A stretch of 41,156 nucleotides of DNA from a virus. The notes beneath the pieces were generated by a model. That model ran no database searches, was not told the DNA's origin, and saw nothing but the letters and a program-made list of their open reading frames with translations. The DNA is taken from positions 1 to 41,156 of IMG/VR virus record IMGVR_UViG_3300025648_000045; one strand, 5' to 3'. The translations under genes and the position numbers were made by a program. Shown here in pieces: positions 1-40,692 of this stretch. Positions within the stretch are counted from its first letter, which is position 1; every line of letters starts with the position of its first letter.

Positions 1-3000
1 TATGTACTTACGCCAACCTCGGTAACAATTCACACCAATCCTGCTGATGCTGTTTCAGGTGTAAACCCAATCACGCTTACTACCGCAGGTTCTGGAACGA
101 ATTCGCTCGTAAAACTCATACCTGCTACAGCAAACATTGGTCAGACCAGTAACATCACAGCATCAGGTCTTTCCGTAAACTCACCATCAGGAAGCGGCGC
201 GGCGGCATCGGCAGTCGTTGTAGGTTCTGTTACTGGAATTACAATTACATCAGGTGGAACTGGATATACTACGCCTCCTCTTGTTCAATTTAGTCCACCA
301 CCAAACCCTCCTGTTAACACAAACCAGCAATTTAGAACAGCGACTGGGTATGCAACAATTGTTTCTGGTGCTGTAACAGCAATTACAATTACTGATGGTG
401 GATTGGGTTATTCAGGCGCACCAACAATCTCATTTATTGGAGCAAATACAACTGGTGCAACGGCTAATGCATCTATAACTCTATCATTTGTATCTTCATT
501 TAATATTGTTTCTGGAGGATCTGGATATACAACTCCACCAGCAGTAAAAATTACTGGCGCAGGGTCAGGAGCAACGGCTATTGCAAGCATTTCAAATGGT
601 CAGGTCACAAGCATAAATGTTGTTACGCAAGGTTCTGGATATGCAACCGCTCCTGTTGTTTCTATCACGCCATCGACTGGCGTATTTATCCAATTCTCAA
701 GCACAGGAACACTTCCATCTCCTTTAGTGGCAGGCACAACATACATTGCACAGCCACCTCTGAATGCCGCTAGTGGAACATTCAGTGTTGTTGATCAATT
801 CTTTAACCCTGTCAACATTACTAGTAACGGAACTGGAACTTTTTATGTTCAACTTAGCAGGGCGTTTTCTATTGGATTTAATAATCAGTGGGAAGGGACA
901 TTTTCAGGACTAACAAATGGTCAGCTTGTTCAGTTTGGATCTGATTATTTGTTCCCAACACTAAGCCCAGCTTCTTCCAGTGGTTATATTGCTTTAATTT
1001 CTAACACGCTTGCAAAGTTCTATTCAACGCAAGCCGAAGCGACAGCAAATTTTCCAATTACAAACATAAAAGTAACTAGTGGAGGGGTTAATTATTCACT
1101 TGTTCCATCAGTTGCAATAACAGGAGGCAGTGGAACATTTACTACTGCACCAACTGCAACTATTGAGCGAACTATTACTTCCACAAATATAATTTCTGGA
1201 GGTTATGGTTATATTACTCCTCCATCAGTAACTATTACTGGAAGCGGAGCAACGGCAAAAGCTACAGCATCTGTTGGACTTATATCTACATTATCTTCTG
1301 GATACATTTCAGGAACCACTCTCCATGTAACTGCATACCCAACTCAAACAAATATTTTGTCAGTTGGTATGTCAATTATTGCGACAAACACATCTACAGG
1401 AATACCTAGTGGCACTTATATTACTGCTTTGGGAACTGGAACAGGAGGAGTTGGAACTTATACGATTAACAATTCTGTAACTTTTGCTAGTTCTGGTAGT
1501 CCTCAAGGAATAACTGGTCTTGCAAATGGAATAACTGCGGTAAATTTAGTAATTGGAAGTCAATCTGGCCCATTTGCAACTGCTCCTGTTGTAACAATTG
1601 ATGCAAGTCCGAATGGAGTCACCGCAACGGCAACTTCCACAATAAATGGAAGTGGAATAATTACAGGATTTACGATTACTGGTCAGGGATCTGGATACAC
1701 ATCCATTCCATCTGTAACATTTATTGGAGGAGGATACACCAGCCAAGCAACTGCTGGAGCAAGTGTTCTAAATGGATCGATCAGTTCAATAGGAATGATT
1801 TTAGCTGGAGCAGGGTATACCGCCGCCCCAAGCGTGCAGATCGGTACTCCTTGGTCTGTTAATACGCAGTATTCTATTGGACAGCAGGTGTATTTTGGTT
1901 CCTATCTTTATACCTGCACAGCGGCTGGGTCTACATTGGGTTCAGGAAATGGAACTCCAACACCAGCAAATCCAAACAATGGAACAGATAGCGATCTATT
2001 CTTTTCATATGCTGGAACAATTGCAACAGCAGTTGCAAATACCTGCTATGTAAGCTCAATTTCAGTTCCAAGCGGTACTTTGGGGTATTCTACTCTACCG
2101 ACAATTACTATCACGCCTGCATCTGGCGACACAACAGGAACTGGAGCCACTGCAATTGTTGTAGATAACGCGATCACAACGCTTACACTTGGCGTTGGTC
2201 AGGCTTATTACGCAGTCCAACAGCCAGCGTATGCAAAGGCGTACATCCCTGCTGGAAACCTTACGAACGGAGCCAGCTTGCTTGCGCCTTCAACTAATCA
2301 GCTACTGAATGATGGTACGCTAGTCACATTCCAGTCTAGTTCTTATGTTTCAGGGGCAACTGACTCAGGATTACCTTATCCGCTTACGCATGGAACTCAG
2401 TACCAGATCAAAAACTACGGAGCAGACATCTATCTGTACGATTCCACAGGAACAACACCGATTGTTTTTGTAAATGGAAGCATTCCAACGCTTGCCAACG
2501 GAACGCTGACGATGAATCACGCCGTCAGCTTCACGCCAGTTCCTTCTTCAACGCTTTCTGTTCCTAATTCTACCTATGACACAGGCGTTCAGGTAATGGT
2601 TCGCGCAAATACCAATGACACGCTTCCGAGCGCGCTTATTGGCGAGGCAACATCGTCCACAAATACAATCAAGGACGCATTTGTGATCAACAATATCGCT
2701 GATCTGACCAGCGCGCAGGCTTATTACACGACGCCATCAACTACATCTTGGATCAATTCCAGTGTGGTCACATTGAACAATGGCACTGCCTACTATGCTA
2801 GGTTTGTGGATGAAAACACCATTTCGTTGTATGACACACTTGCTCACGCAAATGCAGGTGGAACAACTGGACTTGTTTACTACTCAAGCACTGGATCAAC
2901 GGCTACCAGCACATTCTTTATTGATTCTGTTCTCGCTCCAACGCTTGTTAAAGCGATCCTGCACATTGAGAAGCCTGCAAGTGCTGGGTACATCAGCCTG

Positions 3001-6162: not shown

Positions 6163-6981
6163 ATGGGCGGACAAACCTCAAGTTACACACCTCCAATGCC
6201 ATCGAATTATGTGACGATGGCAGAGCTTGGAAATCAAGGAGCCGCAACTACTGGTGCGCTACAGGACTATAATATGCTTCTTACAACAGGAGCAAAAATT
6301 CCTTTACAGCCATTCACACCTGACATTTTTGGAGGTGGGGGAGCGGCTACTCAGGCAGGAATGATATCTGCCGTCGATGCTTTTAAGAATAAACAACTTG
6401 AACAGCAACAAAATGCGCCAGCCGCCGCCGCGCGTGAGAACCTCATGCAGGCCGCGCAAGATTACACTTCTCCTGATTACTGGAACAAGCAGATGGCGCA
6501 GTACGCCAAAACAACTGGCCTTCAAAGCCAACTTGCTTCTGGACTGGGCGACAGCACAATCGGAAAATCTGCTTTATTTGATCAAGCTACCGCCCAAGGA
6601 CAGGCATTTAAGAATGCAAATCTTGGAGCCGCTCAAGGCATCATTGGAGCCGCCCCTACAGGCGGTTATATTGACCCTGCTTCAGCAATTTCTGCACAAC
6701 AGGCCGCTCAAGCGCGAAATGCCCAATCCAGAGGAAAATTTGTTGGTAGCGTTCTTCAAGGGGCGCAGGCAAACCAACAATCTACCACAGATGCAATTAA
6801 TCAATTGATGGGATCTACCTCTCAAGGAATTAATTCATGGCAACAAAATTGGCAAAACAACGATCAAATGAATATGAATAAATCTGCACAAAACGCCGCT
6901 GGAGCAAATGCATCAACTGGTGGTCTGGTTCAAGGTGGTTCAACAATTGCCGCCGCCGCCGCCGTAGTTGCCGCTCTATAA
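6163..6981 (+). CDS. Gly/Ala/Gln-rich putative internal virion protein
   Basis: A 272-residue protein rich in Ala, Gln and Gly. It begins MGGQTSS, like the two small proteins after TfuA (MGGS, MGGG), and ends in a hydrophobic Ala-rich tail (IAAAAAVVAAL). Composition and location before further Gln/Ala-rich proteins and a giant polyvalent protein resemble the internal or ejection proteins of podovirus-like phages, which are packaged in the capsid and injected. The stop overlaps the YcaO start (TAATG), so YcaO translation is probably coupled to this gene. The role is inferred from composition and context only. Confidence 0.65.
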   Translation: MGGQTSSYTPPMPSNYVTMAELGNQGAATTGALQDYNMLLTTGAKIPLQPFTPDIFGGGGAATQAGMISAVDAFKNKQLEQQQNAPAAAARENLMQAAQDYTSPDYWNKQMAQYAKTTGLQSQLASGLGDSTIGKSALFDQATAQGQAFKNANLGAAQGIIGAAPTGGYIDPASAISAQQAAQARNAQSRGKFVGSVLQGAQANQQSTTDAINQLMGSTSQGINSWQQNWQNNDQMNMNKSAQNAAGANASTGGLVQGGSTIAAAAAVVAAL

Positions 6982-8129
6982 TGAAGTTTAAGTTGGAGGG
7001 AGCGCAACGCGCTTGCTCTCCTGAAGATACAATAAGTAGGATGAAGCCATTTTTTGAGATGGCTGGCATCACTAGGGTAGGTGACATTACTGGATTAGAC
7101 AGGATTGGTATACCAGTTGCCCAATGCATAAGACCTGATGCAGTATCATTGGTAGTAGATTCAGGGAAGGGTTATACCAAAATTCAGGCAAGATGCAGTG
7201 CTATTATGGAGGGATTTGAAAGACATATAGCCGAAACTGCAAACATAGAATCCATAGATACATCAGAGTCTAATTTGTTAAATTCCGAAACCAGATTTCC
7301 AATGTTTAATGGTGCGCCATACATAAAAGATGTGTCTATTAAATGGACTACTGCAAAGACCATTTATTCACAAAAAGAAACCTTCGTCCCATTGAATTGT
7401 GTAAAAATGATACCAAGGAATTCTTTGCAAAGTATGTTGTCGGCAAATTTTTCATCTAATAGCAATGGACTTTCTAGTGGAAACACACTTGAGGAGGCCA
7501 TCTGCGGTGGGCTTTATGAAGTGATAGAAAGGGATCAGGTAACTAGGGTTTTCTGTAATCCTAAATTAGGATCAGTAGTCGATATTGATTTAATACAGGA
7601 TGAACATCTAAACACATTGATAGAAAAAATAAAATCAAAGGATGTAAATGTAATATTATTTGATTGTACTGGTGACATTGGACTTCCAACATATATGTGT
7701 TACTTATGGGACAATGAGAGAGGTAACGCGCTGTGCAGGGGATACGCCGCGCATCTTAACCCTGTAGTAGCCCAAAGCAGGGCAATATGTGAGGCAATAC
7801 AAGGAAGGGTAGTTTGGATCGCAGGTAGCCGCGATGATATTACGCACGAAAAATTTGTAGCATCTAAGAATGATGACACTATTGAAATGGTTGATTCATT
7901 GAAAAATTGGAAACCCAAAAAACATATAGAAAGATATGATATGAGCGGAAATCTATTTTCAGATGACATTGCAAAGATACTTTCATTACTGGAAAAAGCA
8001 GGCATTCCTGAACCATTGATATGCGAATTCCAGCACCAGTATCCTTGTAGCGCGGTAAGGATTATGATCCCAACACTTGAAGGGTATTACAATAACTTCA
8101 TCCAGCGCGGAGCGCGTTCTGTGGCATGA
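6981..8129 (+). CDS. ycaO: YcaO-domain ATP-dependent peptide backbone-modifying enzyme
   Basis: A 382-residue YcaO protein. The three family ATP/Mg-binding blocks are present: ARCSAIMEGFERH (residues 70-82), NGLSSGNTLEEAICGG then LYEVIERDQ (162-186), and AQSRAICEAIQGR followed by GSRDD (264-286). YcaO enzymes phosphorylate a backbone amide with ATP so that a Cys/Ser/Thr side chain or sulfide can attack it, giving azolines or thioamides. The next gene is TfuA, the partner typical of thioamide-forming YcaOs. The start overlaps the upstream stop (TAATG) and the stop overlaps the TfuA start (ATGA), so it is a true operon member. The C-terminus lacks the PxPxP ending of azoline-forming YcaOs. Codons look more AT-rich (AGG, AGA, ATA) than neighbours, hinting at acquisition. 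No leader-binding (RRE-like) domain or sulfur donor was seen nearby. Family assignment is firm; substrate is unknown. Confidence 0.95.
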   Translation: MKFKLEGAQRACSPEDTISRMKPFFEMAGITRVGDITGLDRIGIPVAQCIRPDAVSLVVDSGKGYTKIQARCSAIMEGFERHIAETANIESIDTSESNLLNSETRFPMFNGAPYIKDVSIKWTTAKTIYSQKETFVPLNCVKMIPRNSLQSMLSANFSSNSNGLSSGNTLEEAICGGLYEVIERDQVTRVFCNPKLGSVVDIDLIQDEHLNTLIEKIKSKDVNVILFDCTGDIGLPTYMCYLWDNERGNALCRGYAAHLNPVVAQSRAICEAIQGRVVWIAGSRDDITHEKFVASKNDDTIEMVDSLKNWKPKKHIERYDMSGNLFSDDIAKILSLLEKAGIPEPLICEFQHQYPCSAVRIMIPTLEGYYNNFIQRGARSVA

Positions 8130-9118
8130 AAATATTTATTGGGCCAACAGGAATCGGAATAGAAAAAGAGTTGTCTGAATTTGATGTGATGCCGCCAGCC
8201 CAGCAGGGTGACATTGCCTCTGTAGCTTTGGAAGGGGCAACAACTATAATTCTAATTGATGGATACTTTTCTCAACATCTGTCGCCTTGGCATAAAGAAG
8301 TTATATTTGCGATTGAAAAAGGTTGTAGGGTAATAGGTGCTGGGTCATTGGGGGCATTGCGAGCAGTAGAATGTGAGAGGTATGGAATGGAATTGGCTGG
8401 TGATATTGCACAATGGTACAAGGATGGAATTTGCATCGATGACTCTGATGTCGCGTTAGCTCATGCGTGCAAAGAAGATGGATACATGAATCTTTCTGTT
8501 CCTCTTGTAAATATTCTTTCTACCTGCATTTCATTAAACATTGAATATAATCAAATAATAGAAAAATGCAGGTCGATCTTTTATATGGAAAGGAGTTGGA
8601 AGCGACTTGAAATTGAACTTGGAGATGATTATTTCAAAATAAAGAAAAATTACATTAACCAGAAGCAACTTGATACATTAGAGGCCATAAAATTAGCTAA
8701 AACGCCCAAGATAGTAGATCGTGAATCACCAAAAAATCTAATGGGTAGGCATTTTATGGCAATGCTACTAAACGATGTGCCAAAAAACGGAATCAGGCCA
8801 TATGAGACAGCAAAGTTAAGAAAAGAAGCCGCCGACTTCTTTTTACTTACAGAATTTGCTCTTGCATTAGGAGTTACTGCTACTAAAAACGAAATAATTG
8901 CGGCGTCTAAAGAAATGTGGATTAAGTCAGGAGTAACTTCACAAGATGAATCAATTAAATGGTTATCTGCTAATAATGTCACTGAAGAGCAGTGGAATAT
9001 GTTTGCACTCAGGACAGCAATCAGGAACGCCGCCGCAAATTGGCTTGACTCTGCAAGCGGAGGTTGCGACCTTATACCTTTAACAAACCAATATCAAACT
9101 CTAACTTTTAAGAATTAA
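8126..9118 (+). CDS. tfuA: TfuA-like protein (thioamidation partner of YcaO)
   Basis: A 330-residue protein with a clear N-terminal TfuA domain (about 1-130): KIFIGPTG at the start, PPAQQGDI (23-30), IILIDGYFSQ (41-50), WHKEVIFAIEKGCRVIGAGS (55-74), GALRAVECERYGM (76-88) and DDSDVALAH (105-113). TfuA proteins accompany YcaO enzymes in trifolitoxin and thioamitide clusters and in methanogens, where the pair makes thioglycine; TfuA is thought to help deliver sulfur or assist the YcaO. About 200 further residues form a helical C-terminal extension of unknown role. The start overlaps the ycaO stop by ATGA and the next gene begins one base after the stop, indicating a single transcript and coupled translation. 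The assignment is strong; the thioamide chemistry is inferred from the pair. Confidence 0.93.
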   Translation: MKIFIGPTGIGIEKELSEFDVMPPAQQGDIASVALEGATTIILIDGYFSQHLSPWHKEVIFAIEKGCRVIGAGSLGALRAVECERYGMELAGDIAQWYKDGICIDDSDVALAHACKEDGYMNLSVPLVNILSTCISLNIEYNQIIEKCRSIFYMERSWKRLEIELGDDYFKIKKNYINQKQLDTLEAIKLAKTPKIVDRESPKNLMGRHFMAMLLNDVPKNGIRPYETAKLRKEAADFFLLTEFALALGVTATKNEIIAASKEMWIKSGVTSQDESIKWLSANNVTEEQWNMFALRTAIRNAAANWLDSASGGCDLIPLTNQYQTLTFKN

Positions 9119-12180: not shown

Positions 12181-15100
12181 ATGTCATCAGCCGCTGAAGC
12201 CGCTTTTGCAGAGGGTCAGGCAAATGCATTGCCTGCGTTTGCTCCTGATCAGTCCGCGCCTAAACCAGAAGGTGCAGAGAAGCCCAGCAAGAAGCTATCA
12301 GCCGCCGAAGCCGCATTCGCTGAAGGTCAGGGAATAGCTCCTGAACAAGAAGAGATTCCTTTTGCTGAGAAGCTCAAGACGACGCCTTATGAAAAGCTGT
12401 CTAAACTCCAGCAAGATCGACTGACTACATTCACTACTCCTGAAGAGATAGCGCAGATCCCAAAGCACATTCCCAAGACTGACGAACAACTTCGCACGCA
12501 GTTTGAGCATGAGCGTAGCCTCCCTTGGAATGAGGGAATGAGGACGCCAGAAGACTGGTACAACATTGGAAAAGAAGTTATCGGAACTGGCGTCAAGTTT
12601 GCAAAAGGAGCGAAAAAATACGCAGAAGAAAGCCTGTTCTCAGAAGCCGATAAAGATCCATCAGGATATGGTCATCCTAGCATCCAGCCGACAAAAGACC
12701 TTGTTTCCAGCGCGGTTCAGCTTCCTGAAGATGTCGCGTACTTCGGCACAAAGCTAGCTGAAGGAGGAACTGACTGGACTGATCGACTGAGCGAGAAATT
12801 CGGACTTCACGACAAGGAAAAGAGCTTTGAGAACTATAAGGCACGCTACATGGTGGACATGGCGCACGCTCAGACACTGCAAGAGACGCCTTCGGTATAT
12901 GGTCGAGTATTGAAGAACGAAATGGCTAACAAAGCCTTGTCGTCAGTCATCCTGAACAGCCTCCCTGACACCAAGACCATCATGGAGCAGGATGGAATCA
13001 CCGAAGAGCAGGCGAAGGCAAAACGCCAAGCGATGGCGGATCAGATCGCCCAGCAGACCACATCTCAAGCCGCCGCAGAGGAGAAAGCCGCTGACGAGGA
13101 CATCGCGCTCACTGGATCATTCATAATGCCAGCAGGACTTGGTCTTGGCGAGATGGGAGCAGTTGGACTAGCCGCAGAAACGGCGATGGGACTAACTCCT
13201 AAGATCGCACAGGGTCTGAAGTACCTTGGAAAGACTGACGCCGAAATCAAGGCGATGAACGACGCCGCGCAAGCGTTGCAGAAACAGAAATTTGCGGAAA
13301 AATTAGAAAAGAGGCAACAGCCATCAATGGTTGGTCGCACCGCAGGCGCAATTGCCGAGGGTGTTGATAAGCTAAAGGCACTTGGAGAAGCCGCGCCAGA
13401 GGGACTCAAGAAAGTCCTTCCTGTTGGAGTTGGTGCTATCGCTGGGTATGAGACCGACAAGGAACACCCATTATTTGGGGCGTTGGTAGGCGGTGCTGTA
13501 GGTCATGGAGCCGCTCCATTGCTAAAACTTGGTGCGTATGCCGCCAAAGCTCCTGCATTGATCAGGGACATCGACGAGGCTCGCGCGCTAGCGGCTGGTG
13601 GTGGCAAGGGTACATTTGAAACGCTTGGATCACTACCTGATGTCAGCGAATCAACCGCTAAAATCCTGCGATTCGGCGGAAAGAATTTAGACAGCATCAT
13701 CAATAATTCCGTTGAGTACGCGAAGGCTGGCATTCACCCAACATTGGTAGCACTTGCTACTGGCGCACTTGATTCAGCGTCACCAGAAGAAAGGAACCAG
13801 ATGCTATCGACTGGATTGCTGTACGGAATCGGCGGTAGGGCGTTGCACCATGCCCTTGGTAAAATCACAGGCGTTGACCCTGTGGTAGAACAGCGTGAAC
13901 GCCAACAGCAGGCGGTAGACGATTACAAGACATACAAGAGCCTTGATCCTGAGACCCAGAAGACCATGAACGGCCTGACTAGCTGGGACAATGTGATCAA
14001 GCGTCATGAAGGGAGGGTTTCTGAAGCGTATGCGGCTTACAACGATGCTGTCCGTTCAGGCAGTAAGGATGCAGAAAAGCTGGGTAAAGCTCTCAACGAA
14101 GAGAAGAAGACGCTGTCCGCCGTAACGCGAGCCAATGTCCAAACACGCAACGAATTTAGTCGTCAGTTCCTGACTCAGCTTACCAAGCTGAACGAACTTA
14201 CCAACGGAACGCTACGCGCAGGACAGAACAATGTCGGCGTCCACATCCTAACACCTGACCAGATTTTTGCTAAGTTCAGGCAAGACCCTGCCAACAATGG
14301 CATGACCGACGCCGAGGTAATGGAAACCGCTAACCAGCAGGGATTCTATAGCACGCCAGAGGGAGCCGTAGAGTATCAGGCAGGGATGCCAATGGGTGGC
14401 GAAAAGAAGTCACTGATCTTTGATCGCACGAAGCCATCAATCGTCATCAATGCCAATCACCTGAAGGCTCGCCAGCAGATATTTGGAGAAACACCGATTG
14501 AGGCACTCACTCACGAATTCGGTCACCACATCCGTAATATCCCTGAGTTCAGGGAGGCTAATAGGGACGCCGAAGACCTGCTATTCAGCCAAGAGATCAA
14601 GGATCTAAACGGAAATGTAACGGCTACCACATCTGGTAAGTACAGCACCAAGGACTTGGTGGATATGTACCAGAACAACTACATGAGAAACAAAAGCCCA
14701 GATCAGATCGAACAGCTTTCTAAGCTGGCTGGACTTTGGGATGAAACGCGCGGTGCGCTGAATGAGCAGGCAGTAGCCGACTACATGAAGGACGAGATCG
14801 TAGCGCAACTCAACGCTGGAACGCTTTCAAACCACCTTGGTAAGGATCTGGACTCAGCAACGCTCCATTTAGTGGATCTGGCTACCATCAAGACCAAGAA
14901 AAACCTGCTCGACAGGGCGGTTCAGAAGTTCTTTGGACTGGGCGGAAAAGGCAGTCCTGTAGACCCTCTCACAGGCGCGGAGTTCTCACCAGAGGTACTA
15001 GCCGCCAATAGGCAGGCCATACGCGCTCTACAAGCCTTGCAGGGCGAGGTTTCGCCTGCGGTAAAGGCTCCAGACGCACCGAAGATCAGCAGGGCGTTGA

Positions 15101-18100
15101 TGATCAAGAACCGCGCCATCATGGAGAAGTACGGAAAGTACAGCGGACTCTTCAAGACCAAGATGCAGGGACAGATTTACGATGCCGCAGGAAACCCTGT
15201 AGGCGCGCCTGTTGACATTACAAACCCTGCCGCCGCAGAAGGCGCATGGGCGACTGACAGACAGCTTTCTGGCTACGGACAAAAACCTGATGAGGTTCAG
15301 GGAATGACAATACCTGATGGAGGAAGGCTAGTCGTCAGCAAGGCATTCGTTACCGAGGCCGACGGCGTCACGCCTGCGATGTATACGCCTGCGGAGGCCA
15401 AGAAGCTACAAAAGGCTCGCAAGGACACCATCATGCAGGCACTGAACACGCCTGATGAGGGAACTCCTAACAGATTTCAGCCTGTAGCAGACAACTCAGA
15501 AACATGGCGCGGAACATTCACGCCGCTACAGATTCAGGCTATCAAAGACCTGCCAGAGGGCATCATTCCCAAGTCGATCAAGGATCATATTCTCAAGATC
15601 AACGACGCAATTGTCAGGGGCGATGGATCTCGTATGCTTGTGGACTACGCCGCCGTCATGAACGACGCAGGTAAGTACACGGCTTACTCACCAAAGGTTT
15701 ACGATGTGGTTCCCATCGGAATGCACCTCTCCAAGGACGGCAACTTCCTTGTGACTACAATTTCTGTCGGAAGGATGTTTGAGAAGCTCAACGCATGGAG
15801 CCAGCGGATGCCTGCGCGACTATCACCTTGGGGCGGTGACAAGAACGCATTCTTCAAGGAGTTCACCGAGAAGTACCTCCAGAACTGGCAGAATGGACTC
15901 GCAGGAGAGACTGGACTGGCTGGTACGCCTGCCGAGGCACTAGCAAAGAAGAACATCTTTAACGACTTCCTCAACCTGACGACCAACGACTTCAGGGGAT
16001 TGAACGAAGATCGCACTAGGACACCTCGCAGGCGCGGTGATGTGCGCGGAAAAGACATTGATCGCACGATCATGTCAATGCGCTTGGATCACATGGCAGA
16101 GTTGATGGACAACGAACACGCGCCGAAGGTTCCTGTGGACTACGGAAAGGCGATAAGGAATTTCATGCCTGATGTTGCTGTTGTTCCAGAAAAATGGACA
16201 GGCACAGGAAAAGAGCCTGTTACTTCAAATGACGAGTGGGCGAAAACAAAGATGATACCTCAAGGAGGTCGTAGAGGTAACTATATCACTCCGCCAGAAT
16301 TCATAACAAAAAAACATGACATCTCCGAGTTTGTTAAAGGCGGAAAGATGTTTGATGCAAACACAGGTGAAGACATCACAGGCCGCATATACTCTGGAGG
16401 CTCAATTGACGCCAGTGGTAAAAGGCCATCATTTGCAACATCGGATGATCAGCCTGAAAGTTTAGGAACAGGTAACATTTACAGAACAAACCTGTTTAAG
16501 AAGACCGCTGGGCCTTGGGAATGGATAACTCCTAATCCTCCTGCCCATGCCGCTATTGGCGGAAAGAATGGAGATAACCCAGTGCTGATTTCTGTTGAAG
16601 GTTCATTCCCAGACGGCGGAGAAAAACATCGTTATGCGTTAAAGACTGATTTTCAAGGCCCAGTTCAGCTATCTAGGTATTCAGAAAAGTCTAGTGAGCC
16701 TCGCCTTCGTCCAACAGGAAGGGGTAATGTCACCTTTGGAAACAAAGTTGGTGAGATTCGCATAAAAAATAAAATCCACCCTGTCTACAACACGATCACG
16801 ATTGGCAACAAGCCTGCCGAGAGCATCACAACCGCTACCTATACCAACCCTCGCACAGGCGAAGTCACCGAGGGAGCCACGCATCGCGAGGCGAACCCTG
16901 AAGCACCTGTTGAGGCGACTGATAGGGAAAGCCCAGCCTATGGATTCAAAACGAGTTCTGGGGACATTGTAGACCGCGCAAAGGCATACCAGATCGCGAA
17001 GGACGCTGGTCAGTTGAAAGCTCCCACAACGGAGGAGGAGCAGTTCCATGCTGATCGCGGAATCCTGCACAGCGGAATGTATGAGCCGAAGGGTGGCATC
17101 CAGTTCATGCCTGCGGATGCTGATCACGCCGAATTAGAGAGACGCTATAAAGAAGGCGATGAGAAGGCGAAGGAGGAGGCGCAGAAGTTGACTGACGAGC
17201 AAGCCAAAGCCAAGGGAATTGCAATTGTTCAGCCGCTATGGAGAGGATTCCGCAAAAACCCAAATCCTGAAGAATTAAAAACTACGGCAGGCAGGGCAAC
17301 AACATCGTTCACTCCTGTAAAAGAAGTTGCAAATCTTTACTCGCATGATCCAAGTTCCTTAAAACAAGGAAAAGGCTCATCTGTCAGAAAATTCTATCTT
17401 GACCTAAAAAATCCATTAGATTTAAGAGACGAAGGAACAAAAGTTAGCCTTGGTGAAATTTTTGATAAACTTCCTTGGGATTTGACTGGAACTGACTCCG
17501 CAAAAGGAAAATTGGATGCGTATAATATTATAGATATTCTTGATGAACTTTCTGAAAATCACGCTAAAACAGGTTTTGAATATGACATTGACCATTCAGA
17601 TGATGGATGGTTCAAAATGAAAGATTTTGATGACTTAAAAGAATATATTGAAACAAGGGTGGAAAAAATTGATGAAGCGGCAAAGAATGGAGAAGAAGAT
17701 GAAAATGCCGCAATGGAGATTTTCTTTGCGTTAAATGATACTAACCTAGATGCATTTGCAATTGCTGATTCTAGTGAGCTTGTTTATTGGCTAAAAAAAG
17801 CTGGATACGACGGCGTTATTCATAAGGATACAATTGAAGGAGGAAAAGATTACTTTGAGAAAGAATCTGTAGCAGGCAAGCCCATTGAAGAAGTTGAAGG
17901 GATTGATACTGAAGATGATTATTCGCACGATACATATCGTCCATTTGAACAAAACCAAATCAAATCTGCCGAACCATTCACATATGATCAAGACGGCAAC
18001 CTGATCCCTCTCTCCCAGAGGTTTGATGTGACGAAGAGCAACATTAACTTCATGCCTGACCGATCTCCAGAAGATGAAAAGGAATCACTTCGTCTTCGTA

Positions 18101-20349
18101 TGAGCAAAGAGGCTTTGACTGATGCCGCGCTAAATCAATCAAATTGGAAAAACTGGTACAAAGAGCATCAGGACACAATTGAAGATTTCTTTGGAGACCA
18201 TGCAAAACTATTCCAAGACATCCTTGGCGTCACATCTCAAGCCGCTAGCGTAAAAGCCAATGTCGGACTAGCACTAAAAGCATTTGGTCAACTTATGCGC
18301 GGAGAAGAATTCACTGGATATCTTCCTGCTGTAATTAAAAACCTAAATGCGCTTCGTAATAGCACAGATGTATCTGGAAGAAAGATAAGCAACTACAAAG
18401 CCGCTAATGAAGGCGAATCAGCTAGGGTTGTTGTTGACAGGCACATCGCAAGGTTGCTATTCGGCGTCGATACGCCAAGCAAGGCGCAATACGATAAGGC
18501 CGAACAAATCTTGACCGAAATAGCAAATGAAATAGGATGGGAGCCATCACAAGTACAAGCCGCCTTATGGGCGCATTCAATCGTCCAATCAGGAAAAACA
18601 CCACAATCATATGGAGACTACCTCAAACAACTTGAATCCAATGGAGGAATCATCAAACGAATTGGAGAGTTTGCTGGCGGAAGCGCAGGATCTCCTGAAG
18701 CTGGCGGAGCAAGGGGGAGATATTCTCCAGCTAGCGAAGCTCAAAATGGAGGAGCAGTAGACTGGGAGTCGTTCAAGACTAAGACGCAGGAGACTGCCAA
18801 GCCACTGGCAGGCTTGAGCTTCATGCCAACGCAGAAAGCAAAACCTGCGGTAACAACGCAAAAAGGATACGATGATACATATCTCAAACAGGCATTGAAA
18901 GCAGGCAAAAATGGTAAAGTTGCTCTTACTCGACCAGTTCGTCCTGATGAGGCTTTGCCACTTCTTTCCCAACGCATTCCAATCACAGGTGACAATGAAT
19001 GGTCATCATTCGCGTTTGATAAGGCTGGCAATGTTACTCTTTACAACCATGATGGAAATTCTGTGACATTCAAATACGATCCAGCTTTGTTAGCAAAACC
19101 TGTATTCAAGGACGCCGCCATAGAACACGCTGGAAAGGCTGTGCAATTGGCTATGGCTGATCGACACACCGCAACTGGTGGAGATATGGGAGGAATTCTG
19201 CACCCTTGGTTGCTGTCAAATATTAATTCCACAATCACTGGAAGCGATGGAAAAGAATATCGCGTTGTATGGGCAAACAATGAATGGAAGCCTGTTCTTT
19301 CAATGAAGAACAAAGCCAAGAAATGGGGTGCGTATGACCTCATGACTTATCTTATGGGAAAAGACTCCCATGCGTCTAATTCTCGCTCTGTACGAACTAT
19401 TTCAAACGAGATTGAGAATGCTCCGATAACTAGGCAACAAAAGGATCTTTTCCTTGTTCTAGCGAACATTGGAATAATGAAGCAAAAAGCGGCTGATCAG
19501 GTAAAAAACATTGCAAAAGCAAACAAGAAAATTGCCAAGCATGAAGAGATCCTGAAAACAGAAACAGATGAAAAGAAAATTAACGCTTCCACAAATGCAA
19601 TTGCCGCCGCTAACCGCCAATTAGAAACAGCACAATCGAAGTTATCAAATCACATATTAAATGATGATCAAATGGCATTGGGTGCTTTGCTAACAAAATA
19701 CAAAACAGCATACACTGCATACAAAAATGGAAGCAGAAGTGAAGAAAGTTTCTTAAAAAATAAACAAGAATTAGCAGATTACAAAAAATCACAAGAATTT
19801 AAGAATCTTGTAAAAGATGTTCATGGCAAGCAACTAGTAAACCTTGATAAAACTTTCAAAGGAAGAAAGTCAGCCATAAAAGAAATGATGAATGTCAATC
19901 TAGATGGGTTTGATGTGAATCACATCTTGCATGAGACATCTGATTTTGAAAATGGAAGAATCAATCATTTTGTGGGTAGCGTAGAGCTTTCAAGAAATCC
20001 TGACCTTATGGCGGTATATCTTGGAAACGATCCAAAACAAGCAAAACGCATGACCGCGCAGGAAGCGGCGGCGGCGGCAAAATTAAAAGCTGATCCAAAC
20101 TTTGTTCCTCACGAAGCATACACATGGGCAATGCTTGGGCCAGTTGATGGAAATCACTTCCTAAATACTGAACCAGCAACCCATCTTGAATACTTCCCTG
20201 AATTCAGAAAACAATATGCGGCACTAAAAAAAGATGCTAAAAAGAGAAAAGCAATCTTGAATGGTAGTGAAACCACAATGATGGGCGCGATGCGTGATAC
20301 GCTTGATATGCCGCTTGTAATGAAGAGCCTTTCTGATATAAAGAAATAA
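12181..20349 (+). CDS. Giant multidomain polyvalent phage protein (2722 aa)
   Basis: A 2,722-residue protein, by far the largest gene. Visible parts in order: a duplicated N-terminal motif SAAEAAFAEGQ (residues 3-13 and 40-50); Gly/Ala-rich hydrophobic stretches around 309-338 and 413-450 that could be membrane-active; an HExxH zinc metallopeptidase-like site, LTHEFGHHIR (HEFGH at 778-782); a large central region without recognised motif; a linker with repeated (D/E)-x-A-rich helices (1645-1680) followed by an ADP-ribosyltransferase-like domain of the ART-PolyVal type (LWRGF near 1686 to GYDGVIH at 1875-1881); a helical domain resembling one found in other polyvalent proteins (about 1978-2150); and a coiled-coil, charged C-terminus. 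The tetrapeptide NFMP/QFMP/SFMP recurs at 1327, 1641, 1956 and 2213, near domain boundaries. Polyvalent proteins are thought to enter the host with phage DNA and act early. Domain calls are by motif reading. Confidence 0.85.
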   Translation: MSSAAEAAFAEGQANALPAFAPDQSAPKPEGAEKPSKKLSAAEAAFAEGQGIAPEQEEIPFAEKLKTTPYEKLSKLQQDRLTTFTTPEEIAQIPKHIPKTDEQLRTQFEHERSLPWNEGMRTPEDWYNIGKEVIGTGVKFAKGAKKYAEESLFSEADKDPSGYGHPSIQPTKDLVSSAVQLPEDVAYFGTKLAEGGTDWTDRLSEKFGLHDKEKSFENYKARYMVDMAHAQTLQETPSVYGRVLKNEMANKALSSVILNSLPDTKTIMEQDGITEEQAKAKRQAMADQIAQQTTSQAAAEEKAADEDIALTGSFIMPAGLGLGEMGAVGLAAETAMGLTPKIAQGLKYLGKTDAEIKAMNDAAQALQKQKFAEKLEKRQQPSMVGRTAGAIAEGVDKLKALGEAAPEGLKKVLPVGVGAIAGYETDKEHPLFGALVGGAVGHGAAPLLKLGAYAAKAPALIRDIDEARALAAGGGKGTFETLGSLPDVSESTAKILRFGGKNLDSIINNSVEYAKAGIHPTLVALATGALDSASPEERNQMLSTGLLYGIGGRALHHALGKITGVDPVVEQRERQQQAVDDYKTYKSLDPETQKTMNGLTSWDNVIKRHEGRVSEAYAAYNDAVRSGSKDAEKLGKALNEEKKTLSAVTRANVQTRNEFSRQFLTQLTKLNELTNGTLRAGQNNVGVHILTPDQIFAKFRQDPANNGMTDAEVMETANQQGFYSTPEGAVEYQAGMPMGGEKKSLIFDRTKPSIVINANHLKARQQIFGETPIEALTHEFGHHIRNIPEFREANRDAEDLLFSQEIKDLNGNVTATTSGKYSTKDLVDMYQNNYMRNKSPDQIEQLSKLAGLWDETRGALNEQAVADYMKDEIVAQLNAGTLSNHLGKDLDSATLHLVDLATIKTKKNLLDRAVQKFFGLGGKGSPVDPLTGAEFSPEVLAANRQAIRALQALQGEVSPAVKAPDAPKISRALMIKNRAIMEKYGKYSGLFKTKMQGQIYDAAGNPVGAPVDITNPAAAEGAWATDRQLSGYGQKPDEVQGMTIPDGGRLVVSKAFVTEADGVTPAMYTPAEAKKLQKARKDTIMQALNTPDEGTPNRFQPVADNSETWRGTFTPLQIQAIKDLPEGIIPKSIKDHILKINDAIVRGDGSRMLVDYAAVMNDAGKYTAYSPKVYDVVPIGMHLSKDGNFLVTTISVGRMFEKLNAWSQRMPARLSPWGGDKNAFFKEFTEKYLQNWQNGLAGETGLAGTPAEALAKKNIFNDFLNLTTNDFRGLNEDRTRTPRRRGDVRGKDIDRTIMSMRLDHMAELMDNEHAPKVPVDYGKAIRNFMPDVAVVPEKWTGTGKEPVTSNDEWAKTKMIPQGGRRGNYITPPEFITKKHDISEFVKGGKMFDANTGEDITGRIYSGGSIDASGKRPSFATSDDQPESLGTGNIYRTNLFKKTAGPWEWITPNPPAHAAIGGKNGDNPVLISVEGSFPDGGEKHRYALKTDFQGPVQLSRYSEKSSEPRLRPTGRGNVTFGNKVGEIRIKNKIHPVYNTITIGNKPAESITTATYTNPRTGEVTEGATHREANPEAPVEATDRESPAYGFKTSSGDIVDRAKAYQIAKDAGQLKAPTTEEEQFHADRGILHSGMYEPKGGIQFMPADADHAELERRYKEGDEKAKEEAQKLTDEQAKAKGIAIVQPLWRGFRKNPNPEELKTTAGRATTSFTPVKEVANLYSHDPSSLKQGKGSSVRKFYLDLKNPLDLRDEGTKVSLGEIFDKLPWDLTGTDSAKGKLDAYNIIDILDELSENHAKTGFEYDIDHSDDGWFKMKDFDDLKEYIETRVEKIDEAAKNGEEDENAAMEIFFALNDTNLDAFAIADSSELVYWLKKAGYDGVIHKDTIEGGKDYFEKESVAGKPIEEVEGIDTEDDYSHDTYRPFEQNQIKSAEPFTYDQDGNLIPLSQRFDVTKSNINFMPDRSPEDEKESLRLRMSKEALTDAALNQSNWKNWYKEHQDTIEDFFGDHAKLFQDILGVTSQAASVKANVGLALKAFGQLMRGEEFTGYLPAVIKNLNALRNSTDVSGRKISNYKAANEGESARVVVDRHIARLLFGVDTPSKAQYDKAEQILTEIANEIGWEPSQVQAALWAHSIVQSGKTPQSYGDYLKQLESNGGIIKRIGEFAGGSAGSPEAGGARGRYSPASEAQNGGAVDWESFKTKTQETAKPLAGLSFMPTQKAKPAVTTQKGYDDTYLKQALKAGKNGKVALTRPVRPDEALPLLSQRIPITGDNEWSSFAFDKAGNVTLYNHDGNSVTFKYDPALLAKPVFKDAAIEHAGKAVQLAMADRHTATGGDMGGILHPWLLSNINSTITGSDGKEYRVVWANNEWKPVLSMKNKAKKWGAYDLMTYLMGKDSHASNSRSVRTISNEIENAPITRQQKDLFLVLANIGIMKQKAADQVKNIAKANKKIAKHEEILKTETDEKKINASTNAIAAANRQLETAQSKLSNHILNDDQMALGALLTKYKTAYTAYKNGSRSEESFLKNKQELADYKKSQEFKNLVKDVHGKQLVNLDKTFKGRKSAIKEMMNVNLDGFDVNHILHETSDFENGRINHFVGSVELSRNPDLMAVYLGNDPKQAKRMTAQEAAAAAKLKADPNFVPHEAYTWAMLGPVDGNHFLNTEPATHLEYFPEFRKQYAALKKDAKKRKAILNGSETTMMGAMRDTLDMPLVMKSLSDIKK

Positions 20350-20703: not shown

Positions 20704-22020
20704 ATGGCAACAGATATACCTCGCAAGGAAGACCTAAAAGACATCAGTGATGCTGTCTGTATGTTCGTAGATCATGGTCTTTTCATCTCTCAGGCACTTC
20801 GTCTAGCTCAAGACTTCAAGAAGGTATATGTCTATACGCCTTGGGAAACGGCGTTTCCTAAAATGACATCACAAGTTGGACTTGGATACGATGAATTAGA
20901 GGTCGTAGATAGCATTTTTGGGCCTTGGTTTTCTGAAATAGATGTATTTGTATTTCCTGACATCAATTCTGGACATTTACAGCAGTACCTAGCAGACCAA
21001 GGAAAAGCCGTTTGGGGGTGCAAACTAGGTGAATGTCTTGAACTTGAGCGTGAAGGCTGTAAGGAAATACTAAAGGCTTTAGACCTTCCTGTGGGTAAAT
21101 ACACCCATGTAAAAGGAATGGATAATCTTCGTTTGTTTTTGCAAGAAAATGATGGGAAAACGCATTTTTGCAAATTGAATAAGTGGAGAGGCACATTTGA
21201 GACATTCGGATGTACTCATTACAAAGATGTTGAGCCTAAACTTGATGAGATTGAGCATAAAATTGGGCCTCTAAAACACATCATGGAATTCACCATTGAG
21301 GAGGATCTACCTGATCGTGTCGAAGTAGGTACAGATGGCTTTGTAATCGACGGCAAACAGCCTTCTCAGCTTATGGCTGGAATTGAGGTAAAGGATCTGT
21401 GCTATGTAGGAAAGTTCCTTAAATATTCCGACCTTCCAGAACCTGTTCGTCGCTTCAATGACCGCATGGAGCCTGTTTTCAAAGCGTATGGATACCGAGG
21501 TTGGATGTCATCCGAGGTGAGAATTGGAGCGGATATGGAGCCTTACATGATCGATGGATGTATGAGATCGCCATCGCCTCCAAATGAACTTTGGCAACTG
21601 GTCTATTCCAATTTCTCCGAGATAATTTATTACGGCGCGCATGGAATCATGGTTGATCCAGAGCCTACAGCTACATACGGAGCCGAGATTCTTATTCATA
21701 GTTCATGGGCATCTGGAAACTGGCAACCTGTAAACATTGAACCAGAGGTTCGCGAGTTTGTGAAGTTACGCAATTCAATGAAAATTAAAGGAAGGGAATA
21801 CATTTCTCCAATGGGTGATGGACTTCCAGAAATTGGTGCTGTTGTTGGATTGTCTAATAAATCAATCGAAGATGCCATTGACCAAGCATTCAAGAATGCC
21901 GAGGGAGTAAGTGGTTACTATATCGACATTCCAAAGGCTTCTACTGAAACCGCTCTTGAGCAAATTGAAAAGCTGGAAGAGTTGGGGTTGAATTATTTCA
22001 AGGATGAAAAATCCGAATAA
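20704..22020 (+). CDS. ATP-grasp domain protein
   Basis: A 438-residue protein resembling ATP-grasp ligases of the PurD-like type found in several phages. Support comes from the Lys-rich nucleotide-binding middle (FCKLNKWRGTFETFGC, about residues 158-173), a later acidic segment VEVGTDGFVIDG (about 212-223) and the acidic metal-binding-like stretch SSEVRIGADMEPYMIDG (about 272-288). The N-terminal 110 residues look like a Rossmann-type preATP-grasp domain. ATP-grasp enzymes join a carboxylate to an amine or thiol through an acyl-phosphate. The substrate is unknown. It lies in the same late operon as YcaO-TfuA, but 11 kb away, so a shared pathway is only a possibility. Confidence 0.7.
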   Translation: MATDIPRKEDLKDISDAVCMFVDHGLFISQALRLAQDFKKVYVYTPWETAFPKMTSQVGLGYDELEVVDSIFGPWFSEIDVFVFPDINSGHLQQYLADQGKAVWGCKLGECLELEREGCKEILKALDLPVGKYTHVKGMDNLRLFLQENDGKTHFCKLNKWRGTFETFGCTHYKDVEPKLDEIEHKIGPLKHIMEFTIEEDLPDRVEVGTDGFVIDGKQPSQLMAGIEVKDLCYVGKFLKYSDLPEPVRRFNDRMEPVFKAYGYRGWMSSEVRIGADMEPYMIDGCMRSPSPPNELWQLVYSNFSEIIYYGAHGIMVDPEPTATYGAEILIHSSWASGNWQPVNIEPEVREFVKLRNSMKIKGREYISPMGDGLPEIGAVVGLSNKSIEDAIDQAFKNAEGVSGYYIDIPKASTETALEQIEKLEELGLNYFKDEKSE

Positions 22021-37514: not shown

Positions 37515-39419
37515 ATGGCAATGAATCAACAAACAGAGGACACAGGATATAGGCTAACGCCGCCACATTCCATCAAGGTTTTTCACGCTCATGCCGTAAA
37601 TATTCGCAAGGAGGCGGATAGGGACGAGGAGCTTGGTCTGTTGTATGCGGCTCAGTACATCATCACCGAGACGGCTAAGAACGCTGTTGGTTTGACTGAG
37701 ATCGACCTGCCGACGGCTGAGATGGTGGTGCGCCAGTATGTGATGCACCTACTGAATCACGACCAATTTGAGGCGGCGGCTACAATCCTTTGGGGAGCGG
37801 CGGTCTATGACTGGAGACCGAAGAGTTCGCGTGACACATGGCGGTGTCTGTTCGCTGGTGATCGCGTGCTGGTACAGGGCGCAGGTGCTATGGGCAAGAG
37901 CTTTGGGGCGGCGGCATGGTTCTACTTGGACTGGTATCGCGACCCTGAGTACACCTGTATCAAGGTGATCTCGCTGACGAAGGAACACGCCGAGCGGAAC
38001 ATCTTTGCGAACATCAAGACCTTTCATCGGACTGCGCTGGTGAAGCCGATCACCGATCAGGAGGACAAGTCTACCAGCATTCAAGTTACCAACGACAGCA
38101 AGCAGGGCATCCATCTGGTAGCCATTCCGAAGGGCGAGAGCGGTCATGGAACCCTGCGCGGATTCCATCCCATACCGAGAGCAGGCAAGGAGCATCCGAA
38201 GTGGGGAAGATTGTCGCGCACCCATGTGGTGTTGGACGAGGCCGAGGAAGTCCCTGTCGGCGTCTGGGAGGGTATCAACAACATCTTGTCCACAGCGGAT
38301 ACGGAGAGTCACAAGGGTCACATCAAGATTTTTGGCGCGTCAAATCCGAGGGATAGGACTAGCAACTTCGCCCAGCGGTGTGAGCCGAAAGACGGCTGGG
38401 CATCAGTGGACTGCGAGGACGACTTTGAGTGGGACAGCAAGGAGGGATACCATGTGTTGCGACTGGACGCCGCTCGCTGTGAGAATGTGATTGAGAAGCG
38501 GATTGTCTACGCTGGTCTCCAGACCTATCAGGGTTACATGGGATACATCTCGCGCGGTAGGACTGCCGAGGCGATGACGATGGCTCGCGGCTGGTTCCCT
38601 GAAGAGGGCATGGCGATGGGGATCATCACGCCTGCCATGATGGACAACGCGCTTGGTATAGTGCGCTTCATTGGGCCTGTAGTTCCTCTGGCGGCGTTTG
38701 ACTTGGCTCTGGAGGGTAACGATCAGGTGATGTGTTCCTACGGACGATTTGGGCTGTCTGACGGCTGGACTCCTCAGTCTGGTCATTTCATTCCATTCAA
38801 GACGGCGAGGGTGGTGATGCAGTTGGACTCGCAGATACCATTCCCTAAGAAGGCGACGCTGGAGCAGACACAGGCGATCATCAAGTTTGCGAGGACGATG
38901 AAGATTGCACCCAACTGGCTGTGTGTGGACAGGACTGGCAACGGCGCAGGCATTCACGACTCCCTGTGCAGTCTGTTTGGTAGCGAGGTGATGGGAGTCA
39001 ATTACTCATGGGCGGCTAGCGACACGCACATTCTGGGCGACGATAGTCAGAAAGCATCGGAGTTATACAACGGCGTCGTGACCGAGTTGATTTTTGGATT
39101 GGCGAAGTATTTGGAGTTTGAGTACCTGAAGATCAGTCCCAGCTTCAGGAATGAGGATCTGATCCGACAGGCTACGGCTCGCAGGTACAAGCAGAAGGGC
39201 AAGGGTCTAGTGCGCGTCGAGAGCAAGGGCGACTACTGCAAGCGGACGAGGAGCAAGTCTCCTGACGCATTGGATTCGCTGTCGATGCTGGTCTACCTGA
39301 TGCGCCAGCGCGGTGGGGCGGTAGCTACAATGACCGAGACGAAGCCAGAGGGCAACTCGCGCCAGCGTGAATTGCAGAGCCTTGTTGACAAGATGGAGTT
39401 TGTTGATATGTCTGATTAG
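37515..39419 (+). CDS. terL: Terminase large subunit (ATPase-nuclease)
   Basis: A 634-residue large terminase. ATPase motifs: Walker A QGAGAMGKS (121-129) and Walker B VVLDEAEE (238-245), then a motif near FGASNPRDR (about 275-283). The RNase-H-like nuclease has its acidic residues in AAFDLALEGND (D396), CVDRTGNGAG (D472) and KSPDALDSL (D584, D587). It cuts concatemeric DNA and powers packaging through the portal. Length and domain order are normal for a headful- or cos-type enzyme. No portal gene was found downstream within the window. Confidence 0.96.
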   Translation: MAMNQQTEDTGYRLTPPHSIKVFHAHAVNIRKEADRDEELGLLYAAQYIITETAKNAVGLTEIDLPTAEMVVRQYVMHLLNHDQFEAAATILWGAAVYDWRPKSSRDTWRCLFAGDRVLVQGAGAMGKSFGAAAWFYLDWYRDPEYTCIKVISLTKEHAERNIFANIKTFHRTALVKPITDQEDKSTSIQVTNDSKQGIHLVAIPKGESGHGTLRGFHPIPRAGKEHPKWGRLSRTHVVLDEAEEVPVGVWEGINNILSTADTESHKGHIKIFGASNPRDRTSNFAQRCEPKDGWASVDCEDDFEWDSKEGYHVLRLDAARCENVIEKRIVYAGLQTYQGYMGYISRGRTAEAMTMARGWFPEEGMAMGIITPAMMDNALGIVRFIGPVVPLAAFDLALEGNDQVMCSYGRFGLSDGWTPQSGHFIPFKTARVVMQLDSQIPFPKKATLEQTQAIIKFARTMKIAPNWLCVDRTGNGAGIHDSLCSLFGSEVMGVNYSWAASDTHILGDDSQKASELYNGVVTELIFGLAKYLEFEYLKISPSFRNEDLIRQATARRYKQKGKGLVRVESKGDYCKRTRSKSPDALDSLSMLVYLMRQRGGAVATMTETKPEGNSRQRELQSLVDKMEFVDMSD

Positions 39420-39643: not shown

Positions 39644-39756
39644 ATCCGAAACATAAATGCCCAGCCTGCGGTACGGAATGCAAGCCACACCAGTGCAAGG
39701 CGTGTCAGGAAAAAGCGGCTATAGTCTACAAACGCATGGGTAAAAATAGGCCATAA
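39640..39756 (+). CDS. Zinc-ribbon micro-protein (38 aa)
   Basis: A 38-residue protein with two Cys pairs, KCPACGTEC and QCKACQEK, typical of a tiny zinc ribbon, followed by a basic helix. It is coupled to the previous gene by ATGA. It is the last protein gene before the tRNA region. Confidence 0.6.
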   Translation: MNPKHKCPACGTECKPHQCKACQEKAAIVYKRMGKNRP

Positions 39757-39790
39757 CCTCATTATAGAATCGCATTTACTCTGTAAAATG

Positions 39791-39799
39791 TGCTATAAT
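39791..39799 (+). promoter_or_regulatory. Extended -10 promoter for the tRNA
   Basis: TGCTATAAT contains a perfect TATAAT with an upstream TGn, an extended -10 element. A -35 box is not convincing. Transcription would begin near 39806, just before the tRNA. Confidence 0.5.
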
Positions 39800-39818
39800 C
39801 GGTAAAAAAATTTCATAT

Positions 39819-39892
39819 TACCCTTTGGTGTAATGGGAACACATCTCCCTTTGGAGGAGAGATTCATGGTTCAAGTCCATGAGGGGTAGCCA
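39819..39892 (+). tRNA. trnQ: tRNA-Gln (anticodon UUG)
   Basis: A complete 74-base cloverleaf. The 7-bp acceptor stem pairs 39819-39825 with 39881-39887 (one G-U). The D stem is GTG/CAC, the anticodon stem TCTCC/GGAGA with loop CTTTGGA gives anticodon UUG, and the T arm CATGG/CCATG has loop TTCAAGT. The discriminator is G and CCA is encoded. The U1-A72 pair and G73 match bacterial tRNA-Gln identity. It reads CAA and CAG and may aid the very Gln-rich virion proteins of this phage. Confidence 0.95.
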
Positions 39893-39899
39893 ATTTATA

Positions 39900-39926
39900 G
39901 GGAGTTTAGGGAGTTTAGGGAGTTTA
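39900..39926 (+). repeat. Three perfect 9-bp tandem repeats
   Basis: GGGAGTTTA occurs three times in a row without mismatch, 8 bases after the tRNA and 7 bases before a promoter -35 box. The position suggests a binding site for a regulator of the downstream RNA. Confidence 0.85.
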
Positions 39927-39933
39927 CAAACGC

Positions 39934-39961
39934 TTGACAGATATTCATAAGTGCATAGGAT
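39934..39961 (+). promoter_or_regulatory. Strong promoter for a putative RNA (TTGACA-16-TAGGAT)
   Basis: A perfect TTGACA at 39934-39939, a 16-base spacer and TAGGAT at 39956-39961. The same -10 hexamer occurs in early promoter P1. No gene start lies close downstream; instead a structured non-coding stretch follows. Confidence 0.7.
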
Positions 39962-39967
39962 TTGTAA

Positions 39968-40142
39968 TCTCGTGGGAATCTTCGGTGAACCACTGCTCTG
40001 ATTGATCTGAAAAGACTCGGTTGGATGCTTATAATCGGAGGAGGCTTGAGGGGGTGAGTCGAGAGGCTAACGCTAGTTTACTAGGGGGGCGGCATCGAAC
40101 ATTAGCGACCTGAACCTCCTCCGACATTTTTTCTTTTCTTTT
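39968..40142 (+). ncRNA. Putative structured non-coding RNA (~175 nt)
   Basis: Transcript start is estimated from the promoter and the end from the T-tract. A 10-bp stem pairs 40035-40044 (TCGGAGGAGG) with 40115-40124, and the run TTTTTTCTTTTCTTTTT follows, like an intrinsic terminator with a long insert. Inside the stem, GCTAA (40066-40070) pairs with TTAGC (40102-40106) and encloses a CTAG-TTTA-CTAG hairpin (40073-40084). Upstream, GTGG/CCAC (39972-39975, 39990-39993) can pair, and GACTC (40014-40018) matches GAGTC (40056-40060), which would form a pseudoknot. There is no convincing reading frame. It does not resemble 6S, SRP, RNase P or tmRNA. It could instead be a structured leader of the gene at 40171. 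Confidence 0.6.
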
Positions 40143-40170
40143 TACCAGCTTAGGTTTTTGATTGAGCTTC

Positions 40171-40692
40171 ATGAATACATCAACCACCGATACCACACCA
40201 ACGCCGAGGACTGATGAGGCTTGCGAGGCAATGGGCTTAAAAGCCTTTGTAGTGCCAGTAGAAACCTCTCGCCAGCTAGAGCGCGAACTCGCCGAGAAAT
40301 CCAACGAGGTCGCAAGGCTTCGTGAGGAACTTGATCGCCTTAAACGAGGATGCCAAGGGTCATGCTACGCGTGTGAACCAGTTGGAGCAATGAACCTCAA
40401 ACTAGAAGCCGAGGTCGCAAGGCTCCGCGAGATAGTGGAGCGATACCGAGCCGAAACCTGTCCTTCGGAAAAGGACACATCCACCGAAACCTGTCCTTCT
40501 CAAAAGGACGACCAATGGCGAGAGCTTGGCCCAGACGAGATGATCCAAGAGGGTGATGAACGCACAGACTTTTTGCATGGGTTGGCATGGAGAAAGGTTG
40601 AAAACAGCATCGGCACACTTGCTTGGAAATGGACTACGCTGAAATTCCGCACCCTCCGTCCGTTGCCAAAAAAGAAAGCTCCAACAAAGTAA
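40171..40692 (+). CDS. Coiled-coil protein with internal hairpin repeats (173 aa)
   Basis: A 173-residue protein; the ATG at 40171 is preferred to an upstream TTG. The N-terminal part has a segment TPRTDEACEAMG typical of small phage proteins. It continues with a coiled coil that contains EVARLRE twice (residues about 49-55 and 86-92). A Cys-containing linker and two repeats of ETCPSxKD follow, and the C-terminus is Trp/Lys-rich (AWKWTTLKFRTLRPLPKKK). The function is unknown. Confidence 0.65.
   Translation: MNTSTTDTTPTPRTDEACEAMGLKAFVVPVETSRQLERELAEKSNEVARLREELDRLKRGCQGSCYACEPVGAMNLKLEAEVARLREIVERYRAETCPSEKDTSTETCPSQKDDQWRELGPDEMIQEGDERTDFLHGLAWRKVENSIGTLAWKWTTLKFRTLRPLPKKKAPTK
40451..40509 (+). 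repeat. Duplicated in-frame hairpin element
   Basis: CCGAAACCTGTCCTT occurs at 40451-40465 and 40484-40498, 33 bases apart. Each is followed by a loop and AAGGAC, so each copy can form a perfect 6-bp hairpin (GTCCTT, 5-base loop, AAGGAC). Both lie in the same reading frame. Confidence 0.8.

Follow-up and report, generated by a model that had tools for sequence, protein, structure and literature searches.

The abiF RNA (RF03085) is the antitoxin of the AbiF (Abi_2) toxin, which it neutralizes by direct binding, both in cis and in trans (PMC12373285), this neutralization being known from one system studied in depth (PMC12373285). Precedents for RNA-based inhibition by phages are the RNA anti-CRISPRs (Racr), which are solitary repeat units in phages (PMC10651486), and phage-acquired toxI, as covered in a review (PMC9391042); in the toxI escape loci, exemplified by phage PhiTE and the ToxIN system, a phage copy of the RNA antitoxin escapes the toxin-antitoxin system. 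The phage RNA GOLLD has a conserved 3' region and a less conserved 5' region and lies beside tRNA islands, with tRNAs sometimes located in its linker (PMC12286853).

Here, we describe a locus in a 41,156-bp IMG/VR virus record, the whole of which is referred to as the window. Between positions 39934 and 40144, downstream of tRNA-Gln, it contains a conserved promoter and a T-run, with two modules of structured RNA (B and C) in between, and we regard it as practically certain that this element is a genuine, conserved, and as yet unnamed structured RNA. Modules B and C are not themselves abiF RNAs, but abiF RNAs occur as cassettes in the same arrays in related phages (loci L004, L023, and L028) and, at a score below gathering, within the B frame of locus L147. 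By analogy, the element, a solitary phage RNA that follows a promoter and is proposed to mimic a defense RNA while the protein gene is absent, may be likened to a Racr; the present locus, in contrast, stacks several different RNA cassettes. It also differs from ToxI arrays in that tandem repeats of one motif were not found, B and C being unlike each other, as are the other cassettes.

Results

The element and its surroundings

The order of features is tRNA-Gln, GGGAGTTTA repeats, promoter block, B, C, and T-run (Table 1), and in most close relatives, too, the locus has tRNA-Gln as its upstream neighbor. The element lies about 0.5 kb downstream of a putative large terminase gene; neither this gene nor the ORF after the element gave a Pfam match. 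No notable ORF was found on the transcribed strand of the element, the sole internal frame being 30 aa long. Among 50,697 named phages, there were no credible DNA relatives and no terminase relatives, and a query with the terminase gene returned 80 viral loci. A comparison of the window with Rfam 15, at gathering and up to an E value of 10, yielded tRNA as the only credible match, and the region from 39700 to 40300 did not match abiF up to E = 10 (gathering score, 37 bits). This RNA and phage abiF decoys were both absent from the literature searched (most subscription papers fell outside it).

Elsewhere in the window, a YcaO cyclodehydratase gene (Pfam E value, 1e-60) is followed directly by a TfuA-like gene (E value, 2e-28), a pair that in other settings serves peptide backbone thioamidation. 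A single ORF of 2722 aa takes up one-fifth of the genome and possibly encodes a fused internal virion protein, and a 438-aa protein that appears ATP-grasp-like by eye had no Pfam match.

Table 1. Positions of features in the window and of related features in other loci
Feature	Locus	Position	Strand	Remark
Putative large terminase gene	Window	37515-39419		Assigned by position and sequence
tRNA-Gln (anticodon TTG)	Window	39819-39892	+	Upstream of element
Three exact GGGAGTTTA repeats	Window	39900-39926	+	
Promoter block TTTACAAA..TTGACA..TAGGAT..TTTGTAA	Window	39923-39967	+	
TTGACA	Window	39934-39939	+	Within promoter block
TAGGAT	Window	39956-39961	+	Within promoter block
Module B	Window	39968-40029	+	Structured RNA module
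B covarying hairpin, CGTGG/CCAC.G	Window	39971-39995	+	UUCG-containing loop
B second hairpin	Window	39996-40029	+	Exchanged in relatives
Module C	Window	40034-40125	+	Structured RNA module
C closing stem, 10 bp	Window	40035-40044 with 40115-40124	+	
C bulge	Window	40045	+	
C covarying pair	Window	40046-40114	+	
C core UGA/UGA and GG/CC	Window	40047-40051/40109-40113	+	
Exchangeable apical hairpin of C	Window	40052-40103	+	One of about 30 insert families
C core AGCGA	Window	40104-40108	+	
T-run, probable intrinsic terminator	Window	40127-40144	+	After C stem
Downstream ORF	Window	40171-40692		Starts about 26 nt past T-run
YcaO gene and TfuA-like gene	Window	6981-9118		
2722-aa ORF	Window	12181-20349		
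438-aa protein	Window	20704-22020		
GGGAGTTTA in tandem	L139	about 4420-4500	-	Away from promoter
GGGAGTTTA in tandem	L187	3138-3185	opposite	Away from promoter
C module, first of two	L096	8869-8947	+	
C module, second of two	L096	9153-9214	-	
Stacked extra hairpin modules	L117	6011-6433	-	
Stacked extra hairpin modules	L115	about 2400-2660	-	
Stacked extra hairpin modules	L088	3990-4362	-	
Stacked extra hairpin modules	L083	264-590		
Abnormal tRNA-like cassette	L130	1861-1931		
Abnormal tRNA-like cassette	L090	about 2030-2100		
Abnormal tRNA-like cassette	L048	8609-8680		
Abnormal tRNA-like cassette	L049	8545-8616		

Promoter, repeats, and terminator

The promoter consensus alone occurs in the window at chance level (3 sites found versus 3.0 expected), and the transcript as a whole gives only a modest folding z score (-1.7, versus a better -2.9 for the C part); hence, comparative evidence was needed to make the case. 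Of 91 related loci, 24 have the block CTTGACA-N16/17-TAGGATTTGTAA upstream of C, mostly with TTTACAAA in front, versus 0 of 86 control windows. Since the search expression was modeled on the window's own group, other groups of loci may use other promoters. The ends of the block in the window form an inverted repeat (TTTACAAA/TTTGTAA). At the 3' end of the element, TTTT is found at most 16 nt past the C stem in 77% of related elements, compared with 5% of random places; the T-run was missed by a simple terminator scan because the loop is too long. Judged from these sequence signals, the locus would be transcribed from its own promoter.

An earlier note on this DNA had proposed a structured RNA candidate with its own TTGACA promoter and terminator, adjoining tRNA-Gln, devoid of a reading frame, ending in a T-run, and belonging to no class that it could name, and these proposals were borne out by the results given above and by the covariation of B and C described below. 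The three 9-bp repeats to which it pointed are indeed exact copies of GGGAGTTTA, for which 0.13 occurrences would be expected by chance in the window, but a role for them in the promoter is not supported. Related phages also carry GGGAGTTTA away from the promoter, in tandem in L139 and L187, which marks it as a dispersed phage repeat that is not promoter specific.

Structure and covariation of modules C and B

In module C, the order is stem-GGCANUGAGGGG-[hairpin]-UAGCGACCUGAN'CC-stem, with a constant clamp, GGCANUGAGGG...AGCGACCUGAN'CC, that encloses an exchangeable hairpin. Scanned with patterns for C, IMG/VR yielded 47 and 92 stretches; a pattern for B yielded 35. A stem of 7 or more pairs is present in 92 distinct C elements, nearly all of which are located in viral contigs. 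In an alignment of 71 sequences, 94.2% of cells are paired, and the closing helix covaries strongly: double changes are seen at 10 of 16 pairs, with a covariation score of 0.292, versus 0.110 ± 0.007 for shuffled alignments and at most 0.086 with slid partners. The isolated pair by the CA bulge is likewise exchanged (U-A, 34; A-U, 27; G-C, 5; C-G, 3). The invariance of the core is in part due to selection, because the collecting pattern fixes the core; the stem and N-N' covariation is free of this effect. A covariance model of C, which scores the window at 65 bits (the window being a training sequence), finds loci missed by the pattern. Among these are L045 and L021, in which the next C pair is exchanged from U-A to A-U; the stem of L045 differs as well.

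A K-turn reading of the C core was rejected, because the covariation of columns 14-94 is that of a Watson-Crick pair. Two further matches to the core in viral contigs (L178 and L226) were improperly paired and were taken as chance. In L096, two C modules that differ in stem and insert face each other about 200 bp apart.

Grouping the hairpin inserts of C at 75% identity gives about 30 families, and most of the multimember families are combined with several different stem versions. Module B reads CGUGGGGAUCUUCGGUGAACCACUG, followed by the second hairpin. Its first hairpin is 100% paired, with double changes at two positions, one of which is occupied by U-A, G-C, or C-G and the other by G-C or C-G, and the second helix also covaries. 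The comparison of relatives that the earlier note had suggested as a check thus revealed covariation in both modules, strong in the case of C. The 10-bp closing stem that it had drawn is real and covaries; the single fold into which it had placed this stem is instead a pair of modules within a mosaic locus of cassettes. The pseudoknot that it had considered, read as apical-hairpin CGCUA with core UAGCG, is not supported, because UAGCG is part of the constant core and is kept with about 30 families of apical hairpins.

Exchange of cassettes between phages

In loci with a related terminase, the region past tRNA-Gln is a mosaic. Locus L003 is 96% identical to the window up to position 39966, continues with a tRNA-Trp, and then returns to B and C; L128 has the same arrangement, with tRNA-Trp before B-C and 98% identity up to 39966. 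L004 carries an abiF RNA (40.9 bits) at the very insertion point used by the tRNA-Trp of L003, and in L147, an abiF-like hairpin (33.0 bits, below gathering) replaces the second hairpin within the B frame. The exchange junctions coincide with module borders. Both modules are missing from L006 despite a terminase that is 97% identical, and L220, of which 11.2 kb of a 138-kb contig was examined, has only C detectably in common with the window (102 bp at 89%). The element is found 5 kb upstream of the terminase in L073, and C is close to apparent lysis genes in L166. More generally, the sequence that follows the element varies between loci, and C is found in unrelated contexts; second copies of C are only occasional (L009, L029, and L085). 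The swapped cassettes, the absence from L006, and the sharing of C alone with L220 indicate that the locus is accessory and has spread horizontally.

In several loci, C is stacked with additional recurring hairpin modules, among them GGAATCAGGCGAAGCCCGTAAAACGGACAAGCATGGTTCC and CCCTCTCCGTGATCGAAAGGTTGCGTGA..GGCAAGG, for which Rfam has no match. Some arrays also contain, or lie near, tRNA-like cassettes whose anticodon arms are abnormal, an example being an anticodon loop that, by eye, has 6 nt; ARAGORN reported those of L048 and L049 as tRNA-???. These cassettes are possibly tRNA decoys.

abiF RNAs in phages and in cellular genomes

Three of the phage cassettes score above the abiF gathering cutoff (L028, 43.8 bits; L023, 41.9 bits; and L004), and L147, L103, L090, and L105 carry abiF-like sequences that score 32 to 34 bits, below this cutoff. 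The phage cassettes retain the AAGCCU..GCUCAAA core. No Abi_2 gene was found in 22 phage records (G000 and 21 related ones), many of which are fragments and several of which span 40 to 60 kb. The layout of a type III toxin-antitoxin system, an RNA and then its toxin gene, was not encountered, the relatives having been searched for Abi_2 only.

A scan of 84,980 species for the C core gave 17 matches, of which L166 alone was properly paired and the others were taken as chance. L166, the sole C in the cellular genome set, is situated in a Spartobacteria bin, on a contig of phage-like character, a location that offers weak evidence as to the host. Because of this location, Verrucomicrobiota were chosen for the abiF scan: abiF RNA was found in 13 of 195 Verrucomicrobiota genomes, 9 of them above the cutoff, and in four loci the neighboring gene is Abi_2 (E values of 5e-51 to 2e-56). 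In a shallow first look at 388 Verrucomicrobiota genomes, the C model found only the L166 genome (G001), and the same 388 genomes contained no relative of the window's terminase. When the arrays of L117 and L088 were compared with 289 Verrucomicrobiota genomes, three short matches, none credible, were obtained outside the L166 genome; the two that were inspected both lay in coding sequence and were taken as chance.

Discussion

An RNA counter-defense locus that makes decoy RNAs is, tentatively, the best explanation of these data. Such a phage cassette locus beside tRNA-Gln would transcribe small structured RNAs from a common promoter and would end in C, whose stem, together with the T-run, would double as the terminator. 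Recombination would swap the cassettes (tRNAs, abiF RNAs, B, and other hairpin modules) between phages and, likewise, the hairpins inside the B and C frames. Each cassette would imitate an RNA that is recognized by an RNA-binding defense protein of the host, such as a toxin or an RNase, and the phage transcript would hold this protein in an inactive state, in the manner of RNA antitoxins and RNA anti-CRISPRs.

It is for the abiF cassettes only that homology backs the counter-defense reading. An antitoxin RNA that occurs without its toxin, in a phage and beside tRNAs, is most simply a decoy, and we infer that the phage abiF RNAs neutralize host AbiF. As B and C belong to the same transcription units and occupy the same site as the abiF cassettes, the simplest inference is that they serve the same purpose, and they would then be decoys or display frames. 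No counterpart of B or C beside a toxin gene was detected in the cellular genomes scanned, and C may for this reason be a scaffold or a 3' clamp and not a decoy; it could just as well serve as a constant 3' clamp and terminator, stabilizing or displaying the exchangeable hairpins. A more doubtful extension is that of a recombinational RNA cassette locus, modular, stackable, and distributed across unrelated phages, in which interchangeable hairpins, presented on the constant B and C clamps, would each serve as a decoy against a different RNA-binding host defense.

The main rival, which we consider somewhat unlikely, is a compact GOLLD/ROOL-like scaffold or particle RNA that would assemble RNA or RNP particles during lysis, with C as the conserved 3' domain and variable 5' domains and tRNAs between. 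GOLLD and ROOL are also phage RNAs that lie beside tRNAs, the conserved 3' and variable 5' layout is that of GOLLD, and C usually forms the final structured module ahead of the T-run. However, the element is far smaller (about 170 nt), it gave no match to the Rfam GOLLD and ROOL models up to E = 10, and its swappable hairpin cassettes set it apart; moreover, abiF antitoxin RNAs among the exchanged cassettes would be left unexplained. Less likely still is a regulatory role, with B and C acting as a small RNA or attenuator, in cis on the downstream ORF or in trans, via the hairpin loops, on mRNAs. An own promoter and terminator, loops that vary like small-RNA seeds, and an ORF so close to the T-run would suit such a role, but the downstream content differs between loci, C occurs in unrelated contexts, and conservation resides in the core and the helices and not in a single-stranded seed.

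A role in packaging or replication, like that of phi29 pRNA, to which the proximity of the putative terminase gene might point, is very improbable, since the element is absent from L006 and is found away from the terminase in L073 and L166, and since an accessory, exchanged element would be unexpected for packaging machinery. Equally improbable are ordinary terminator or intergenic hairpins after a tRNA, kept only by descent among close relatives: a stem with a T-run and a whole-transcript fold that only moderately beats shuffles would fit, but not the strong covariation in 71 distinct sequences, the conserved internal core and promoter, or the occurrence of C in otherwise unrelated phage sequences.

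Irrespective of function, a strongly covarying RNA family that is absent from Rfam and common to otherwise unrelated phages is a new and directly testable object. If the locus does serve counter-defense, RNA-based inhibition would extend from single mimics, such as Racr and toxI, to a reshuffling library, and the unmatched cassettes would be baits for RNA-dependent defense proteins. Should the hairpins displayed by B and C indeed be interchangeable decoys, the inserts without a match would point to RNA-dependent defense systems that are not yet known.
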